From Lacinutrix sp. WUR7 (GTDB taxonomy: Bacteria > Bacteroidota > Bacteroidia > Flavobacteriales > Flavobacteriaceae), in NCBI RefSeq assembly GCF_016864015.1, contig NZ_CP045067.1, forward strand, positions 345,001-409,000: a DNA stretch of 64,000 nt, read 5' to 3'. Shown here piece by piece: positions 20,850-28,403 of this stretch. Each line of letters opens with the position of its first letter. Within the stretch, counting starts at the first letter, position 1. Made by a program: the position numbers and the translations under genes. The notes beneath the pieces were generated by a model. The model did no database searches. It worked only from the letters and a program-made list of their open reading frames with translations, and was not told the DNA's origin.

Positions 20850-20876
20850 AAAAACATGAAATTACTTCATGTTTTT
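20850..20876 (-). terminator. ffh terminator overlapping the ffh stop codon
   Basis: AAAAACATGAA pairs with TTCATGTTTTT (11 bp, 5-nt loop), followed by a T-run on the minus strand. The ffh stop codon (20862-20864) lies in the hairpin loop, and one arm encodes the last residues of Ffh. The terminator is therefore partly inside the gene. Confidence 0.75.
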
Positions 20877-22190
20877 CATTGCATTCATCATTCGTTTTCC
20901 GCCACCACCTTGCATCATCTTCATCATTTTCGACATTTGGTTGAATTGTTTTAATAGCTGATTTACTTCTTGAACCGAAGTACCAGATCCTTTACCAATT
21001 CTTTTTTTACGGCTTGCGTCTATAATAGAAGGGTTTGTTCTTTCTTTTACTGTCATAGAATGTATAATCGCCTCAATACCTTTAAAAGCATCATCATCAA
21101 TATCTACATCTTTCATCATTTTTCCAGCTCCAGGAATCATTCCAATAAGGTCTTTCATGTTCCCCATTTTCTTGATTTGCTGAATTTGCTTTAAGAAATC
21201 ATCAAAACCAAATTGATTTTTAGCAATTTTCTTTTGTAATTTTCTAGCTTCATCTTCATCAAACTGCTCTTGTGCTCTTTCTACAAGAGATACAACATCT
21301 CCCATTCCAAGAATACGATCTGCCATACGAGAAGGATAGAAAACATCAATTGCTTCCATTTTCTCCCCTGTACCAATAAACTTAATTGGTTTGTTTACTA
21401 CAGATTTAATAGAGATTGCTGCTCCACCACGTGTATCCCCATCTAATTTGGTAAGAATAACACCATCAAAATTTAAAATATCATTGAAGGCTTTTGCTGT
21501 ATTTACAGCATCTTGACCTGTCATAGAATCTACAACAAACAAAGTTTCTTGTGGTTGAATAGCTTTATGGATGTTAGATATTTCGGCCATCATGGCTTCA
21601 TCTACAGCCAAACGACCAGCAGTATCAATAATTACTACATTATGTCCGTTTGCTTTTGCATGTGCAATACCTGCTTGTGCAATAGCTACAGGATCTGTAT
21701 TTCCTCTATCGCTATAAACATCTACTTTGATTTGATCTCCTACCACATGTAATTGATCTACAGCTGCAGGACGATATACATCACAAGCTACCAATAAAGG
21801 TTTCTTTGTTTTTTTGGTTTTAAGATAGTTCGCAAGTTTTCCAGAAAAGGTTGTTTTACCAGAACCTTGTAATCCAGACATTAAAATAATACTTGGCGTT
21901 CCTGTTAAATTAAGACCTTCTACATCTCCTCCCATTAACTGGGTAAGTTCGTCTTTAACAATCTTCACCATTAATTGTCCTGGCTGTAAGCTTGTTAATA
22001 CGTTTTGTCCAAGTGCTTTTTCTTTTACTTTATTCGTAAAATCTTTAGCAATTTTAAAGTTAACATCGGCATCTAATAACGCTCTACGTACTTCTTTTAG
22101 AGTTTCGGCAACATTAACTTCTGTAATGCTTCCATGCCCTTTTAGTACATGTAACGCTTTATCTAACTTTTCACTTAAATTATTAAACAT
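20862..22190 (-). CDS. ffh: signal recognition particle GTPase Ffh
   Basis: The SRP protein binds hydrophobic signal sequences and targets ribosomes to the membrane with FtsY. The 442-residue protein has an N domain, G domain with G1 SGLQGSGKTTFSGKLA, DTAGRL, TKLDGDTRGGAA, and a Met-rich M domain (KMGNMKDLIGMIPGAGKMM, MSKMMKMMQGGGGKRMM). The ATG at 22190 gives the expected N-terminal FNNLSEKLDKAL. The gene is monocistronic with a terminator that overlaps its stop. An SRP RNA gene was not found in this window. Confidence 0.97.
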   Translation of the reverse strand: MFNNLSEKLDKALHVLKGHGSITEVNVAETLKEVRRALLDADVNFKIAKDFTNKVKEKALGQNVLTSLQPGQLMVKIVKDELTQLMGGDVEGLNLTGTPSIILMSGLQGSGKTTFSGKLANYLKTKKTKKPLLVACDVYRPAAVDQLHVVGDQIKVDVYSDRGNTDPVAIAQAGIAHAKANGHNVVIIDTAGRLAVDEAMMAEISNIHKAIQPQETLFVVDSMTGQDAVNTAKAFNDILNFDGVILTKLDGDTRGGAAISIKSVVNKPIKFIGTGEKMEAIDVFYPSRMADRILGMGDVVSLVERAQEQFDEDEARKLQKKIAKNQFGFDDFLKQIQQIKKMGNMKDLIGMIPGAGKMMKDVDIDDDAFKGIEAIIHSMTVKERTNPSIIDASRKKRIGKGSGTSVQEVNQLLKQFNQMSKMMKMMQGGGGKRMMNAMKNMK

Positions 22191-22335
22191 ATTTTTTTTA
22201 TTTCAATAGTTGCAAAAGTAAAGAAATATTTTGTTTTTCTTTAATGGAAAAGCTTGTTTAATTGGAATTAAAGCATATTTACCACATCCTTGAAAAACAA
22301 CTGTCTCTATTTTAGTTTTCACAATTAAAAATAAA

Positions 22336-22367
22336 AAAAAGAGACTTCTTTTAAGAAGCCTCTTTTT
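22336..22367 (-). terminator. intrinsic terminator of the LamG lipoprotein gene
   Basis: A hairpin of AAAAAGAG.CTTCTT and AAGAAG.CTCTTTTT with one internal mismatch lies 29 bp past the lipoprotein stop. It has a run of T on the minus strand. Confidence 0.8.
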
Positions 22368-22395
22368 CATTAATAATTTACTCGTTACACTTAAC

Positions 22396-24477
22396 TTATA
22401 AACAGGTATAACATTCCCCATCTAAATTAAATAATTCTCCTACTTCGTTTGAACTTAAAGTTCTTTTATACACTCTTAAATCATCCAGATGACCAACAAA
22501 ACCTTCCCCAATAAGGTATCTATCTGAAGCTTGAGAACCAATATTTAGGCTCGAATTCTCATCGATATTTCTTTGCACTCCATCTCTATATAATCTAACG
22601 GTATTATCTGCATCTACTGTCACTACTAGATGGTGCCAATCGGTGTTTTCCCATACTACATCTACTCCGCCATTCCAGTCATTATCCCAAAGATAAAAAC
22701 TTGTATTATCTGTAAACAAAGGCGTATTTAAATCATAAACACCCAATTGAAATCCTTGTGTTGCATTTCCTGGTGATCTAAAAAATAATTCTAAATCTCC
22801 AACCGCTGTATTTTGCATTTTAAACCATAAACTTATAGAAAAACTATCTCCTTGTTCCAGCTCACTGTCTGTATTTACAGGAATCTCAAAGGTGTCATTT
22901 CCGGTAAAAGCTATGGCACAAGAAGAATTTCCTGCTCTATCTTCTACAAATGTATTGGTAATATTTTCTACGTTAAAACCACTTATTAAATCGTGAGCTT
23001 CTTCTGCAAAAGGCATGTATATTACCAAATCGTTTATTAAAACTTCTGGGGTATTGCAATCTTCACAATCTTGCTCGAGCTCCATAGTAATTACATTACC
23101 TGAATTTGTTTCCTGACTAAAGATAAATGCATCTTCATCACAACCAAAAAGCAACCATTCTCCATTTAACAAATCAAAAACAGTCAATCCTTCAATGGTT
23201 AAGGTATAACCAGAACCCGATTCTAAAAGAGACCAAGAGCCAAATTCTGTTACAGCTGGTTCTCCATTAACAGTTACTTCTCCATTAGCATCAAACATTA
23301 AATAATTTTCATCTAAAATATTACCAGATGCATCATAAGTAGATGCTTCTATATCACATTCTAATAACAAGCCTTCTAATTCGGCAAGGTTTACATTACA
23401 ATCTTCTATCTCATCATTTTCGCAATCCTGTTCTAACACTAAATTATTATTTCCATTAAAGAATTCAAATCTATCATCATCACATGAAATCATTTCCCAA
23501 ACTATATTTAAAGACGCATGTGGCTCTATATTAAAATCAAGATTTAAAGAAGTAATATCGTTATCTGAAGACAAACTCCAAGTTCCTGTAGTAACTAAAT
23601 CACCAGTTACATCGTTATAAATTTCTACGTTTCCATCTGCTAAAAAGACAAAATATTCTGCAACAAAAGTTGAATATAAGCTTGTAACATAATTCCAATG
23701 ACATTCTATCAATGAAGACGCAATATACGCTTCCGTACAATCATCATCTCCATCATCGTCATTCCAATCGTAATCATCATCTTCATCACAAGTATCTTCA
23801 GCGGCTTCAATAGCAGCTTCCATTTCTGTATTATTTTCTACAACAACGGTATCTCCGTTAGCTAACACCATAGTAACAGGGAAGTTTATACTAGCTAAAA
23901 CTCCTCCATCTAAATTTTCAATAAAAGCATATAAGGCTTCATCATCATTTATGGTAACAGTATCTATAACCTGAAAATCTGTATTATACATGGAAATGGT
24001 AATAGGAAATTGAAAATCGACACATTCTATATCGTCATCTTCTTCATCTTCATCATTACAATTTTCTATTTGTGCTTCTAATTCGTCTTGGTTATTAATA
24101 ATTATTTCAGAATAATCGCTTAAAATCACGGTTATTGGAAATGTTATTTCTACGTCGTCGTCATCAATTGTAAAAGCGTCTAAAATAGTTTCTAATGCAT
24201 CATAATCTGTAATACTTTCTATAGTTATTGTTACACCATTTGCAGTAACGGTTACCGGTAAAGCAACCTCTAGGCAATTCGCATAATCGATAATATTATC
24301 ACCAGAACCATCGTTAGAAGCTACATTGCGCATTAAATTAGCCAAATTAGAATTTGGTGCAATCGTTTCTTCATTATCGGGTTCTGTTACTTCTACTACT
24401 TCTTCTTGACATGCCGAAAATAACATCAAAAAAAGTAAGAATAGCAAAAGAAGAAATTTCGAGTGGATAGTTTTCAT
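22396..24477 (-). CDS. modular acidic LamG-domain lipoprotein
   Basis: The 693-residue product starts with a lipoprotein signal and lipobox FSAC (Cys 23). The mature part is very acidic and modular. Four copies of a roughly 35-residue unit with a FP(I/V)T(V/I) strand and a D/E-rich ALE/LEA helix lie at about 69-102, 110-140, 154-190 and 196-230. Two roughly 110-residue units follow (about 247-352 and 360-471), each with a GTW- or GSW-centred strand and a terminal MELEQDC/LVLEQDC. A LamG/concanavalin-like C-terminal domain follows (about 484-683; WHHLVVTVD, HLDDLRVYKRTLS). Cys-flanked acidic linkers (CNDEDEEDDDIEC) separate modules. It is divergent from the ECF sigma gene and carries the shared 31-nt motif upstream. 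Cell-surface binding is inferred; ligand unknown. Confidence 0.85.
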   Translation of the reverse strand: MKTIHSKFLLLLFLLFLMLFSACQEEVVEVTEPDNEETIAPNSNLANLMRNVASNDGSGDNIIDYANCLEVALPVTVTANGVTITIESITDYDALETILDAFTIDDDDVEITFPITVILSDYSEIIINNQDELEAQIENCNDEDEEDDDIECVDFQFPITISMYNTDFQVIDTVTINDDEALYAFIENLDGGVLASINFPVTMVLANGDTVVVENNTEMEAAIEAAEDTCDEDDDYDWNDDDGDDDCTEAYIASSLIECHWNYVTSLYSTFVAEYFVFLADGNVEIYNDVTGDLVTTGTWSLSSDNDITSLNLDFNIEPHASLNIVWEMISCDDDRFEFFNGNNNLVLEQDCENDEIEDCNVNLAELEGLLLECDIEASTYDASGNILDENYLMFDANGEVTVNGEPAVTEFGSWSLLESGSGYTLTIEGLTVFDLLNGEWLLFGCDEDAFIFSQETNSGNVITMELEQDCEDCNTPEVLINDLVIYMPFAEEAHDLISGFNVENITNTFVEDRAGNSSCAIAFTGNDTFEIPVNTDSELEQGDSFSISLWFKMQNTAVGDLELFFRSPGNATQGFQLGVYDLNTPLFTDNTSFYLWDNDWNGGVDVVWENTDWHHLVVTVDADNTVRLYRDGVQRNIDENSSLNIGSQASDRYLIGEGFVGHLDDLRVYKRTLSSNEVGELFNLDGECYTCL

Positions 24478-24538: not shown

Positions 24539-24569
24539 TATAACATCTTCGTTAAAAAAACTCCTACCT
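24539..24569 (-). promoter_or_regulatory. candidate ECF sigma promoter upstream of LamG lipoprotein
   Basis: On the minus strand AGGTAGGAGTTTTT is followed after exactly 11 nt by GTTATA, 61 nt before the lipoprotein ATG. The same arrangement occurs at 25172-25202 in front of fecR. The spacing of the two halves fits a -35/-10 pair. This is direct sequence evidence; sigma binding is inferred. Confidence 0.65.
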
Positions 24570-24599
24570 TGACTTTTAAAAAAAATTGTTACTACTTTG
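24569..24599 (+). promoter_or_regulatory. putative housekeeping promoter of ECF sigma gene
   Basis: TTG (24569-24571) is followed after 21 nt by TACTTTG (24593-24599), close to the Bacteroidota TTG-N19-TAnnTTTG form. The predicted start lies about 15-20 nt before the sigma ATG at 24621. Its TTG overlaps the edge of the divergent candidate ECF promoter. Confidence 0.45.
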
Positions 24600-24620
24600 C
24601 AGAAACCTTTTTAACTATAC

Positions 24621-25136
24621 ATGCAAAAGTCTTTAAACAATAATGTCTGTAATGAGAATCGTTTCAATGGCCTATTTAACAAATACGCTAAAGACTTGCA
24701 TCACTTTTTGTATTATAAATTTGGGGATCATTTAAACCCTAAAGATAAAGTGCAAGATGCTTTTATAAAACTTTGGCAAAATTGCAGTACTGTTTCTCCT
24801 GAAAAAGCGAAAAGCTATTTATATACGGTAGCAAATAATTTAATGCTGAATGCCGTTGCACATCAAAAAGTAGTTTTAAAACATCAGAAAATAAAACCAA
24901 CCGAACATTCTAACGAGTCTCCAGAGTTTTTAATGGAAGAAAAGGAATACCGCAAAAAACTAGAAAATGCCATTGCAAATTTAACCGAAGCACAACGTGT
25001 TGCCTTTTTAATGAATCGTGTGGAAGGAAAACGATTTAAAGAAATTGCATCGCTTTTAGATATTAGCACCAAAGCTGTAGAAAAACGAATTTATGGTGCC
25101 TTGAAAAAATTACGAGAAGACATTGAAGAATTATGA
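24621..25136 (+). CDS. ECF-type RNA polymerase sigma factor
   Basis: The 171-residue protein is a sigma-70 family ECF factor. Region 2 is seen as FNKYAKDLHHFLYYKFG, with the -10-binding segment DKVQDAFIKLWQN and SYLYTVANNLMLN. Region 4 is LENAIANLTEAQRVAFLMNR, with the helix-turn-helix FKEIASLLDISTKAVEKRIYGALKKLR. It is followed by fecR (gap 83 bp) and a TonB-dependent receptor, the usual cell-surface-signalling arrangement. The anti-sigma factor would hold it inactive until the receptor binds its ligand. The FecR gene is not translationally coupled and has its own candidate promoter. Confidence 0.95.
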   Translation: MQKSLNNNVCNENRFNGLFNKYAKDLHHFLYYKFGDHLNPKDKVQDAFIKLWQNCSTVSPEKAKSYLYTVANNLMLNAVAHQKVVLKHQKIKPTEHSNESPEFLMEEKEYRKKLENAIANLTEAQRVAFLMNRVEGKRFKEIASLLDISTKAVEKRIYGALKKLREDIEEL

Positions 25137-25171
25137 TTTCTGTTTTTATAGGAATAATAATTTTAATTTCG

Positions 25172-25202
25172 AGGTAGGAGTTTTTAAACCTTACTTGTTA
25201 TA
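25172..25202 (+). promoter_or_regulatory. candidate ECF sigma promoter upstream of fecR
   Basis: AGGTAGGAGTTTTT (25172-25185) is followed after 11 nt by GTTATA (25197-25202), 17 nt before the ATG at 25220. It is identical in motif and spacing to the site at 24539-24569 on the other strand, upstream of the lipoprotein gene. Inferred to be the self-regulated promoter of the fecR-receptor operon. Confidence 0.65.
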
Positions 25203-25219
25203 TACTTGAATAGCATACA

Positions 25220-26116
25220 ATGAATAAAGAAGAATTAATTTTAAAATGGTTAGATAACGACTTAAGTCCGAAAGAACTTGAAGCATTTGAAGCACTCGAA
25301 GATTATGAGTCGTTAATTAAACTAGCCAAGTACAGCAAAGGTTTTAAAGCACCAGAGTTTAATACCGAGGCTGTTTTAGAAAGCACCTTACATGGTATAA
25401 ATGCGAAAAAACCAGTTTCAAAAAAATGGTTTCAACCTATCTTAAAAGTCGCAGCTATTCTAGCTATTTGTTTGGGTAGCTACTATTACACCACAACTTT
25501 GGATAGTTCTTTTACTACAGATTATGCTGAAAAATCGACTTTCGCGCTTCCGGATCATTCGTCTGTATATTTAAATGCTCTTTCAGAAATTACCTTCAAT
25601 AAAAAGAATTGGAATACAAACAGAACCATTACACTAGATGGCGAAGCTTTTTTTAAAGTAGAAAAAGGCAGCACGTTTCACGTAAAAACAGATGCAGGAA
25701 CCGTAACTGTTTTAGGTACTCAATTTAATGTAAAACAACGTAAGGATTATTTTGAAGTAGTTTGTTATGAAGGCACCGTAGAAATAAACTACAATACCGG
25801 AAAGTCTATTTTAAAAGCTGGCGATTCGTTTTTAGTATTAAATGGAAACATGACAACAGCTACAACTACTAACGTCAAACAACCAGAATGGCTAAACCAT
25901 ATTAGCGCTTTTTCCAGCGTACCATTAAGCGAAGTTTTAGCAGAGTTTGAAAGACAATACAACGTTAAATTTGAAACTTCCAATATAGAGACAAGTACGT
26001 TATTTACTGGAAAATTCACACATAAAAACATAGATATTGCACTAAAATCGATAACAGAACCTTTACAATTAAGCTATACAAAAAACAACAAAACCATTAT
26101 TTTATCGCGTGAATAA
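25220..26116 (+). CDS. FecR-type anti-sigma factor
   Basis: The 298-residue inner-membrane anti-sigma factor has a cytoplasmic N-terminal segment (about 1-70, ILKWLDNDLSPKELEAFEAL), one membrane helix (PILKVAAILAICLGSYY) and a periplasmic FecR domain (about 105-200; STFALPDHSSVYLNALSEI, RTITLDGEAFFKV, VLGTQFNVK). The C-terminal DUF4974 region (about 228-296; VPLSEVLAEFERQYNVKFE, FTGKFTHKNIDIALKSI) has the same helix-strand layout as the STN domain of the receptor encoded next. The 8-bp overlap with the receptor gene suggests coupling. It should receive the receptor's signal and release the sigma factor. Confidence 0.93.
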   Translation: MNKEELILKWLDNDLSPKELEAFEALEDYESLIKLAKYSKGFKAPEFNTEAVLESTLHGINAKKPVSKKWFQPILKVAAILAICLGSYYYTTTLDSSFTTDYAEKSTFALPDHSSVYLNALSEITFNKKNWNTNRTITLDGEAFFKVEKGSTFHVKTDAGTVTVLGTQFNVKQRKDYFEVVCYEGTVEINYNTGKSILKAGDSFLVLNGNMTTATTTNVKQPEWLNHISAFSSVPLSEVLAEFERQYNVKFETSNIETSTLFTGKFTHKNIDIALKSITEPLQLSYTKNNKTIILSRE

Positions 26117-28403
26117 ATCGCTAAAAATTGCGCTATTATTAATTTTCTTTTTTTTGGGTTACTCGACTGTTTTTTCACAAAACAAAAAGCAACCTCTAGC
26201 TCAAGTATTGGCTATAATCGAACAACAATTTAAAGTTAGTTTTTCTTATGCCGATAGTACGATTAAAGATATTGACGTGTTTTTGGATAGCAATGAAAAC
26301 TTAGAGGTAATTCTAACTGCTTTAGAAAAACAAACGCAATTAAAGTTCAACAAATTAAACAACCAGTTTATTACCATTGTAAGACAAGAAGTACAACCTT
26401 TTACCATTCAGAAGTTAGAAGAAGTAGTAATCACCAACTATTTAACCACAGGAATAAATAAAAACACCACAGGAAGTATTACTATAAGACCAGAACAATT
26501 TGGCATTTTACCAGGTTTAATAGAACCAGATGTATTGCAAACTATCCAAGCACTTCCTGGCGTTTTAAGTGTAGATGAAACGGTTTCTAATATTAATATT
26601 AGAGGAGGAACACACGACCAAAACCTCATACTTTGGGATGGTATTAAAATGTATCAATCTGGTCACTTTTTCGGACTTATATCTGCATTCAATCCGTATT
26701 TAACCAAGCAAGTAAATGTATCTAAAAACGGAACCTCAGCACAATATGGCGATGGCGTTTCTAGTGTGATAGATATGCAATTATCGAACACCATACAAAA
26801 TGATTTTAAAGCTGGGGCTGGTTTTAATTTAGTGCATGCAGATGGGTATGCTAAAACGCCAATTGGTAAACATGCAGAATTACAACTTTCGGCAAGACGT
26901 TCGTTTACCGATTTAGTAACTGCTCCAACCTACAAGCAGTATTTTAAACGCATTTTTCAAGATTCCGATTTTGAAAGTAATCAGGAAGAACAAAATAATA
27001 CGATCTCTAAAAACGAAAACTTTTACTTTTATGATTTCTCGGGAAAATTGCTATTAAATCTTTCTAAAAAAGACAAACTCCAAATCAGTTTTTTAACCAT
27101 TCATAATAATTTAGATTACGAAGAACAATCTACTATTAACAATATTAACGAGTCTTTAAATAGTAAACTTATTCAGCGTAATTTGGCAAGTGGTATTAAC
27201 TACACCAGAAAGTGGCATTCTAAATTAAGCTCTAACCTACACGTATCAATTTCTAACTACGAATTAGATGCCAAGAATTTTGACATTTTAAACGACCAAC
27301 GATTAATTCAAGAAAATAAAGTATTTGATAGCGCTTTAAAACTAGACACCAAATGGCATATTAATAAAAACACCAACCTTCAAATTGGCTATCAGTTTTT
27401 TGAAGTAGGCATTAGTAATTTAGAAAACGTTAATAATCCCGTATTTAGAAGTTATATCAAGGAAGTTATTAGAAGTCATTCCGCTTTCGCTGAAGGCCAA
27501 TTAATAGCTAACAACAAAAACACCAATGCAAAAGCAGGAATACGATTTAACTACATTCCTAAATTAGACGCTTTTTTAGCAGAACCAAGAATAAGTTTTA
27601 GCCAACGGTTTGCAAATCATTTTAGAGTAGAACTTCTTGGAGAATTTAAGAGTCAGACTACCTCACAAATCATCGATTTACAAAATGATTTTTTAGGTAT
27701 CGAAAAGCGTCGTTGGATTTTAGCAAACAACACAGATATTCCAATCATAAAAAGCAAACAAGCATCTTTAGGAACACATTATAACAAAAACGACTTACTA
27801 ATTAGTGCAGAAGTTTTTTATAAAGAAGTTGACGGCATCACCACCAGAAGCCAAGGCTTTCAAAACCAGTTTCAGTATGAAAAAGCGATAGGAAGCTATC
27901 AAGTAAAAGGAATGGATTTCTTAATTAATAAACAGTTTACTCATTTTAATACGTGGTTAAGTTATTCGTATAGTAAAAACGATTATACGTTTAAGAACTT
28001 AAATAACGGAAACCCTTTTCCTAATAACGCAGACATTACGCATGCGGTTAATTTCTCCAATACCTACACGGCAAACAAATACAAGTTTGCCCTAGGTGTA
28101 AACTGGCATTCTGGGAAGCCTTATACAACTCATGACAACACCATCTCTGCTGGCAATATTAATTACAACGCACCAAACAGTAATCCTTTAAAAGATTATT
28201 TACGTGTCGATTTTTCGGCTACAAAAGATTTAAAAATTTCGGAAGGAATTCAGGCTAAAATTGGCGCTTCTGTTTGGAATCTTTTAAACACCAAAAATAC
28301 GATTAACAGATACTATGTTTTGGATGCAGAGGATAACATTTCGAAAGTAGAAAACCAATCGTTAGGCATAACGCCAAACGTAAGTTTTCGTGTATATTTT
28401 TAG
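26109..28403 (+). CDS. TonB-dependent receptor with N-terminal STN signalling domain
   Basis: The 764-residue outer-membrane receptor starts at a GTG overlapping the fecR stop codon; a good signal peptide follows (IALLLIFFFLGYSTVFSQ). An STN (secretin/TonB N-terminal) signalling domain occupies about 25-92 (PLAQVLAIIEQQFKVSFSYA). Then comes a plug region (PDVLQTIQALPGVLSVDE, VSNINIRGGTHDQNLILWDG, QVNVSKNGTSAQYGDGVSSV) and a 22-strand type barrel ending VSFRVYF with a terminal aromatic. No carboxypeptidase-like domain or obvious SusD partner is seen. It is coupled to FecR, so ligand binding should be signalled across to the ECF sigma. The ligand is unknown; iron chelate or oligosaccharide are both possible. 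Confidence 0.93.
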   Translation: MNKSLKIALLLIFFFLGYSTVFSQNKKQPLAQVLAIIEQQFKVSFSYADSTIKDIDVFLDSNENLEVILTALEKQTQLKFNKLNNQFITIVRQEVQPFTIQKLEEVVITNYLTTGINKNTTGSITIRPEQFGILPGLIEPDVLQTIQALPGVLSVDETVSNINIRGGTHDQNLILWDGIKMYQSGHFFGLISAFNPYLTKQVNVSKNGTSAQYGDGVSSVIDMQLSNTIQNDFKAGAGFNLVHADGYAKTPIGKHAELQLSARRSFTDLVTAPTYKQYFKRIFQDSDFESNQEEQNNTISKNENFYFYDFSGKLLLNLSKKDKLQISFLTIHNNLDYEEQSTINNINESLNSKLIQRNLASGINYTRKWHSKLSSNLHVSISNYELDAKNFDILNDQRLIQENKVFDSALKLDTKWHINKNTNLQIGYQFFEVGISNLENVNNPVFRSYIKEVIRSHSAFAEGQLIANNKNTNAKAGIRFNYIPKLDAFLAEPRISFSQRFANHFRVELLGEFKSQTTSQIIDLQNDFLGIEKRRWILANNTDIPIIKSKQASLGTHYNKNDLLISAEVFYKEVDGITTRSQGFQNQFQYEKAIGSYQVKGMDFLINKQFTHFNTWLSYSYSKNDYTFKNLNNGNPFPNNADITHAVNFSNTYTANKYKFALGVNWHSGKPYTTHDNTISAGNINYNAPNSNPLKDYLRVDFSATKDLKISEGIQAKIGASVWNLLNTKNTINRYYVLDAEDNISKVENQSLGITPNVSFRVYF

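Follow-up and report, generated by a model that had tools for sequence, protein, structure and literature searches.

In Escherichia coli, fecIR forms a single unit that is read by sigma-70 and is not autoregulated; the fecA promoter is the one served by FecI, as outlined in PMC9249621. The same source outlines the HasI/HasS/HasR haem system, in which the sigma factor raises the anti-sigma gene and the sigma gene is likewise not autoregulated (PMC9249621). For Bacteroides, PMC13088901 outlines the Dma/Das regulators of vesiculation, where Dma consists of an anti-sigma part, a tether and a barrel and has an ECF21 sigma partner; ECF systems are also named there among the usual controls of SusC/SusD glycan uptake pairs (PMC13088901).

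The window analysed here, a stretch of 64,000 nucleotides from Lacinutrix sp. WUR7 (contig NZ_CP045067.1, positions 345,001 to 409,000), contains a four-gene module of divergent lipoprotein, ECF sigma factor, FecR-type regulator and TonB-dependent receptor that is common in the family. The ECF sigma factor (24621..25136, plus strand; 171 aa) has regions 2 and 4 (Pfam Sigma70_r2 and Sigma70_r4_2) and the recognition helix KAVEKRIYGAL. The adjoining FecR-type sigma regulator (25220..26116, plus strand; 298 aa) carries FecR and FecR_C domains; its most hydrophobic stretch, residues 70-88 (mean 1.44), is the putative membrane span. Domain matches in the TonB-dependent receptor (26109..28403, plus strand; 764 aa) comprise an N-terminal FecR_C-type domain (residues 26-89), which we take to be related to STN, a plug (141-216) and a barrel (301-714). 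On the other strand, the divergent lipoprotein (22396..24477, minus strand; 693 aa) has a lipobox cysteine at residue 23; acidic residues make up 21 percent of its sequence and basic ones 2 percent. Alignment and a predicted model delimit a conserved N-terminal domain (residues 22-232; 23782..24414, minus strand), and Pfam finds a Laminin_G_3 domain at the C-terminus (residues 538-679; 22441..22866, minus strand). Orthologous modules adjoin ffh and folD (20862-22190 in the window), with ffh in reach in 61 of the 80 best-ranked named loci described below.

Two hairpins accompany these genes. The one behind the lipoprotein gene (22335..22368, minus strand) is terminator-like and came from a terminator scan that found 3 candidates over the whole region against 3.0 in shuffles, i.e. 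no excess. The other, small and A+U-rich, spans the sigma stop codon and is followed by TTTTAATTT (25131..25160, plus strand, found in the sequence); it is absent from the output of the standard terminator scan. Across five genomes of the genus, both partners of one of its pairs change and several other pairs are disrupted. It is possibly a weak terminator or a processing site.

Judged by its domains and conservation, the module belongs to the FecI/FecR type of signalling system, with a wiring and a target sequence of its own. As in FecI/FecR/FecA, there is an ECF sigma factor with regions 2 and 4, a FecR-domain protein and a receptor with an extra, putatively signalling N-terminal domain before the plug, and the sigma gene lies outside its own control. 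The sigma-specific promoter that FecI-type systems have before the receptor unit is indicated here by conservation and co-variation, and precedes fecR and the receptor together. Unlike in E. coli fec, the ECF promoter here stands between the sigma gene and fecR, which would make fecR itself a target, and a second target promoter stands before the divergent lipoprotein gene, the target being GGTAGGR-N17-GTTWYA. The module would share the self-limiting wiring outlined for HasI/HasS; there, however, the substrate, haem, is known, and the description in PMC9249621, in the part that outlines the system, includes no divergent lipoprotein. With Dma/Das, as outlined in PMC13088901, it has in common a Bacteroidota ECF sigma under the control of a protein that extends to the outer membrane, whereas FecR and receptor are here separate ORFs (25220-26116 and 26109-28403). 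A TonB-dependent outer-membrane protein together with a lipoprotein recalls SusC/SusD, but the lipoprotein here has no SusD/RagB match (Pfam at E up to 1, window lipoprotein, L059, L063, L069, L068 and L045). Among the papers listed in literature searches, none treats this module as judged by title or abstract start; an ECF re-classification may list the motif, and a search for GGTAGG/GTTATA with sigma factor and Flavobacteri returned nothing relevant.

The motif pair and its recurrence in relatives

The initial annotation had described a 31-nt bipartite motif on both sides of the sigma gene and had read it as the cognate promoter of this sigma factor. The 31-mer, AGGTAGGAGTTTTT-N11-GTTATA, is indeed present as an exact match at 24539-24569 (minus strand) and at 25172-25202 (plus strand), and the distances to the start codons, 61 nt on the lipoprotein side and 17 nt on the fecR side, proved correct. 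With up to three mismatches, a search of the window gave no further match (0.01 expected from window shuffles). The 3,987,475-base genome (one contig), searched in the same way, also yielded these two 31-mers only and no crowd of unrelated copies; the reversed pattern gave 1 match.

Exact match and conservation in relatives delimit two putative ECF-type promoters. That of the lipoprotein gene (24539..24568, minus strand) has a -35 block GGTAGGA at 24562-24568, N17 and a -10 block GTTATA at 24539-24544; that of the fecR-receptor pair (25173..25202, plus strand) has GGTAGGA at 25173-25179, N17 and GTTATA at 25197-25202. Housekeeping promoters of Bacteroidota follow the consensus TTG / TAnnTTTG, and the TAnnTTTG -7 element is absent from both window sites, where the -10 is GTTATA.

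The core conserved across relatives is GGTAGGR-N17-GTTWYA, with blocks GGTAGGR and TGTTWYA spaced as GGTAGG-N18-GTTATA, and is shorter than the 31-mer. The 14-nt first half of the motif as first drawn is a local extension of the 7-nt element. In a comparison of 122 distinct promoter pairs, in which AGG and GTY were search anchors and hence invariant by construction, block 1 reads GGTAGG plus A or G in most cases and block 2 mostly T-GTTWYA. A T-run after block 1 is a weaker preference, more marked on the lipoprotein side, and the preferred -10 is GTTTTA on the lipoprotein side and GTTATA on the fecR side. The -10 blocks in relatives are mostly GTTATA, GTTTTA or GTCTTA, without TAnnTTTG. Across 199 family genomes, own included, the core matched exactly 422 times and the reversed pattern 165 times, with matches in 147 and 102 genomes, respectively.

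At E 1e-10, 33 of 60 genomes, the own one among them, contain homologues of the sigma factor. We compiled 67 modules, defined as the distinct sigma domains near 40 fetched places, the window, L081, L087 and 29 lipoprotein-domain loci; a 30th such locus (L093) is the window itself and was left out. A divergent gene with the lipoprotein N-terminal domain is present in 58 of the 67. Scanning with the pattern NNNAGG-N18-GTY and a quality filter detected both sites in 53 of these 58, the lipoprotein-side site only in 4 and none in 1. In three of the four one-site modules (L104, L105, L120) the other site lies beyond scan reach from the sigma gene, and the module without a site in the scan (L067) has GGGTAAA and TGTTATA on both sides. 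In the remaining 9 modules, where the domain is missing from its expected place, both sites were found in 2 (L033, L041), one in 4 (L034, L036, L048, L051) and none in 3 (L050, L052, L087); L033, L036 and L052 have the lipoprotein domain nearby in another gene position, and L034 stops at a contig end.

A second set, drawn from named genomes and overlapping the first in part, consists of the best 80 of 574 confirmed loci. All 80 have FecR, 78 the receptor, 65 the divergent lipoprotein domain and 77 both sites, the last not being an unbiased rate since loci whose sigma is closer to the query ranked higher. Reversed regions of the same 80 loci gave 3 sites upstream, 1 downstream and 0 loci with both, and strict GGTAGG-N18-GTT stands on both sides in 65/80. 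The best 80 come from Oceanihabitans, Mesoflavibacter, Lacinutrix, Olleya, Psychroserpens, Winogradskyella, Dokdonia, Bizionia, Tenacibaculum, Kordia and Aquimarina, and the nearest is an Oceanihabitans metagenome-assembled genome whose sigma is 99 percent identical. A search of the plasmid collection gave no match.

Agreement between the spacers of the two sites of a locus is 0.543 against 0.480 in shuffled pairs (122 pairs). Identical 18-nt spacers at both promoters of one locus were seen in L041, L071, L154, L171 and L183, i.e. in 5/122 pairs where about 0.02 percent is expected from shuffled pairs. Such a frequency lies far above chance. The two copies are thus homogenised now and then, and occasional gene conversion of the inverted copies is suggested as the route. 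The same five pairs would be the argument for regarding the site pair as a functionless relic of duplication or gene conversion, but with spacers agreeing at only 0.543 while -35 and -10 persist family-wide, we find that explanation scarcely credible. Divergent spacers between blocks that stay recognisable throughout the family argue for selection on the blocks.

Co-variation of the sites with the sigma factor

With a single sigma factor serving both promoters, the sites within a locus would be expected to change in concert. Across 53 modules, 5.68 of 7 variable positions agree within a locus compared with 4.40 for shuffled partners; of 5000 shuffles, which ignore kinship, 0 reach 5.68 and the largest gives 4.83. 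The search pattern places a loose constraint on three of the seven positions, to the same degree in true and shuffled pairs, and on sides with two candidate sites (L038, L040, L042, L046, L065) we took the one that ranked first by score and position. The 122 pairs show the same tendency, again with kinship ignored: agreement is 0.913 versus 0.815 shuffled for the first three -35 bases and 0.702 versus 0.643 for the variable -10 bases.

The -35 block also changes together with the sigma factor. Eight sigmas have TCAGG or TAAGG as the fecR-side -35, and all 8/8 carry V152 and Y155, neither of which occurs in the other 139 of 147 aligned sigmas; in the aligned region 4.2 their recognition helix is changed from KAVEKR to KVVEYR or KVIEYR. 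Residue 155 presumably corresponds to a base-contacting position in sigma-E of E. coli. The TCAGG clade probably goes back to one evolutionary event, and residues beyond the helix likewise follow the promoter classes, some of them scoring higher, a pattern that kinship would produce. RIYRAL is found only in two Kordia sigmas of the 147, and their -35 is GGTGGG; in L194 it stands on both sides, and in L189 it was found only on the lipoprotein side. A GTCTTA -10 stands on both sides in L038, L040, L042, L047, L049 and one module of L066, and L045 has the pair GTCTTA/GTCATA. L066 contains two modules in one genome whose sites differ with the neighbouring sigma. We read the joint change of recognition helix and -35 as the footprint of direct recognition, confounded as it is by kinship.

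A separate transcription factor that binds the motif and co-regulates both units, with the promoters elsewhere, would account for part of these observations: a dimeric regulator would also leave two conserved blocks a fixed distance apart, and the A/T run beside the first block is partly conserved. Against such a factor, neither block repeats the other, both keep a fixed spacing and the same orientation toward the gene, the -35 block varies with the recognition helix of the sigma next to it, and no other recurring neighbour regulator was noticed by eye among the module maps listed. We judge it improbable. Even less probable is that the sites, though genuine promoters, serve a different ECF sigma of the cell and that the neighbouring one has other targets. 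ECF promoters overlap in general, and relatives have sites of identical sequence outside the module; yet the own genome has one sigma of this family (E 1e-10 or better) and two sites only, and the sites vary with the neighbouring sigma, even between the two modules of L066.

Sequence, conservation, uniqueness in the genome and co-variation together make it highly likely that the two motifs are the target promoter pair of the ECF sigma between them, within a FecI/FecR-type system as a whole. Recurrence of the pair in 77 of the best 80 loci, co-variation of the sites and the parallel change of helix and -35 support both the cognate promoter proposed for the sigma factor at 24621 and the proposed membership of the lipoprotein gene in its regulon.

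The sigma gene's putative promoter and the proposed wiring of the module

A housekeeping-type promoter, with its TTG overlapping the edge of the divergent motif, had been assigned to the sigma gene itself. The putative element (24569..24599, plus strand; moderate confidence) ends 21 nt before the ATG and consists of TTG at 24569-24571, N21 and TACTTTG at 24593-24599. Its TTG overlaps the divergent 31-mer by one base, as described, and adjoins the -35 of that motif; that the sigma gene is read from this housekeeping-type promoter is only moderately supported. Within 70 nt upstream, TA-N1-3-TTTG occurs in 27/80 named sigma genes where 9.6 are expected from Markov resamples (largest 20), and TTG-N16-24-TA-N1-3-TTTG in 6/80 where 1.2 are expected. 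Strict TAnnTTTG, found in 7/80 with 3.2 expected (largest resample 10), stays within controls.

Up to 1500 nt upstream of the sigma gene and in its direction, the motif is absent from 80/80 named loci and from 66/67 other modules, in agreement with a sigma gene outside motif control. The exception is L087, where a site heads the operon that contains the sigma gene. This paralogous module (L087:5761-10692) runs in one direction, with the motif followed by a 195-aa secreted protein, sigma, fecR and receptor. Its sigma would be autoregulated and, as L087 illustrates by its gene order, the putative wiring is different among members.

In the window, polymerase on the sigma promoter or on the divergent promoter could hinder the other. 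In relatives the motif starts 27-163 nt from the sigma ATG in 74/77 loci and about 300 nt from it in 3 (L191, L195, L196), so promoter occlusion would not be general. The distant upstream sites of these three loci may be chance matches.

From the sequence we infer the signalling steps and the transcription starts as follows. Sigma would be made from its own, probably housekeeping, promoter, and the FecR-type regulator would hold and control the sigma protein. Ligand binding by the receptor would cause its N-terminal domain to act on FecR and sigma to become active. Active sigma would then recognise GGTAGGR (-35) and GTTWYA (-10), N17 apart, and raise transcription of fecR and receptor on one side and of the putative surface lipoprotein on the other. 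With the regulator in the induced unit and sigma outside it, the loop should be self-limiting.

Extent of the regulon and the divergent output

In the own genome, GTAGGR-N16-TGTTWYA with at most one mismatch gave 25 matches, two of them exact, against 39 in the reversed control. The 23 one-mismatch sites comprise 17 inside open frames and 6 between genes, and 2 of these 6 stand within 150 nt upstream of a same-strand frame (L211 at 91 nt, L223 at 19 nt); L223 has a changed -10 and a downstream frame without evident signal peptide. The in-frame sites L221 and L224 also precede a same-strand frame. None of the 23 is a credible further member. With fewer matches than the control and 17/23 in frames, there is no sign of further members, and the regulon of this genome appears to consist of these two promoters only.

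In relatives the regulon may be wider. From the matches listed there, we chose by eye a non-random set of 21 sites outside divergent modules; 13/21 lie 6-50 nt upstream of a same-strand frame, including the L087 sigma operon. Several secreted or lipoprotein genes stand behind such off-module sites, with Por_Secre_tail in the genes at L075, L083 and L086 and LRR_5 or LTD/CotH in L083 and L086. Exact motif copies 6-50 nt before secreted, type IX-secreted or lipoprotein genes were seen at L075, L083, L085, L086 and others of L073-L092.

The domain common to the divergent genes, residues 22-232, was delimited in an alignment of 31 sequences. At E 1e-6 it occurs in 109/149 family genomes, own included, some matches being half-length. 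Of its best 30 loci, own included, all 30 are adjoined by a divergent sigma gene of the same family; both strict sites were found in 22, one in 5 and none in 3, and those three are of the TCAGG kind. The C-termini differ between family members. Pfam searches at E up to 1 with six members gave only LamG and sub-threshold matches, and NCBIfam searches with three members gave no family match in the N-terminal domain. L045:7434-8882 and L047:5469-6965 encode family lipoproteins with cysteine-rich inserts that look Kazal-like by eye; L045 has no Kazal-type Pfam match.

The predicted model of the lipoprotein domain shows four repeats of strands plus helix (pLDDT 81.5, pTM 0.70). Foldseek found no PDB match for it at E 0.001, and a PDB sequence search found none at E 1. 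A likeness to RimK was discarded as too weak (best Z 5.9 over 58 residues). The missing structural match of the predicted model does not establish a new fold. Judging from co-occurrence and the shared promoter, the lipoprotein may work with the receptor at the cell surface.

Among the best 80 named loci, 14 are without the lipoprotein domain and one is cut. Nine Psychroserpens-type loci keep the promoter without the lipoprotein (L134, L140, L143, L145, L152, L158, L169, L178, L182). Counted from 5 nt behind the -10, the stretch that follows is 87-91 nt long in 6/9 and 156-167 nt in 3/9, and ends in a terminator-like hairpin and a T-run, then ffh. The unit between the sigma gene and ffh in L158 (L158:5840-5927, minus strand) is an example of this candidate RNA. 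All nine have TTAGTTTTAGTTTTTAGTTGG and a hairpin in common, the box being altered in L145, and Ichthyenterobacterium L128, where the lipoprotein is present, has the same box and hairpin directly behind the stop codon. This indicates that the promoter and the mRNA 3' end outlived the loss of the frame. When we searched for the 3' box in lipoprotein mRNAs of 65 loci, two of which gave no sequence, only L128 matched (21/21), and the next best score, 16, was within the shuffled range. Rfam returned no family in the six loci searched. In the candidate structure 1/25 pairs changes on both sides, within the terminator, so that co-variation support is nearly nil.

The other loci without the lipoprotein domain differ. 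L125 (Olleya) lacks the gene and has a 182-nt stretch of other sequence, and L202 and the cut L193 keep the promoter with a different secreted protein on the divergent side, which looks to us like the DUF2911 type; L191, L195 and L196 also belong to the loci without the domain. We offer, as a tentative idea, that the divergent output is in part a sigma-controlled small RNA derived from an mRNA 3' end, and that the paralogous modules form a series of ECF sigmas switching their -35 with both promoters. For the Psychroserpens-type loci, a functionless deletion would be the plain alternative.

To our knowledge, most target promoters of the numerous ECF sigmas paired with FecR in Bacteroidota have yet to be assigned. 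Here, sequence alone gives a precise consensus and, in one genome, an apparently closed regulon of two promoters. Relatives in which recognition helix and promoter have changed jointly offer a natural experiment on ECF specificity, and a wiring in which the regulator of sigma would be induced and sigma itself would not is a subject for study. Finally, a widespread, uncharacterised lipoprotein domain offers itself for study as a defined partner.
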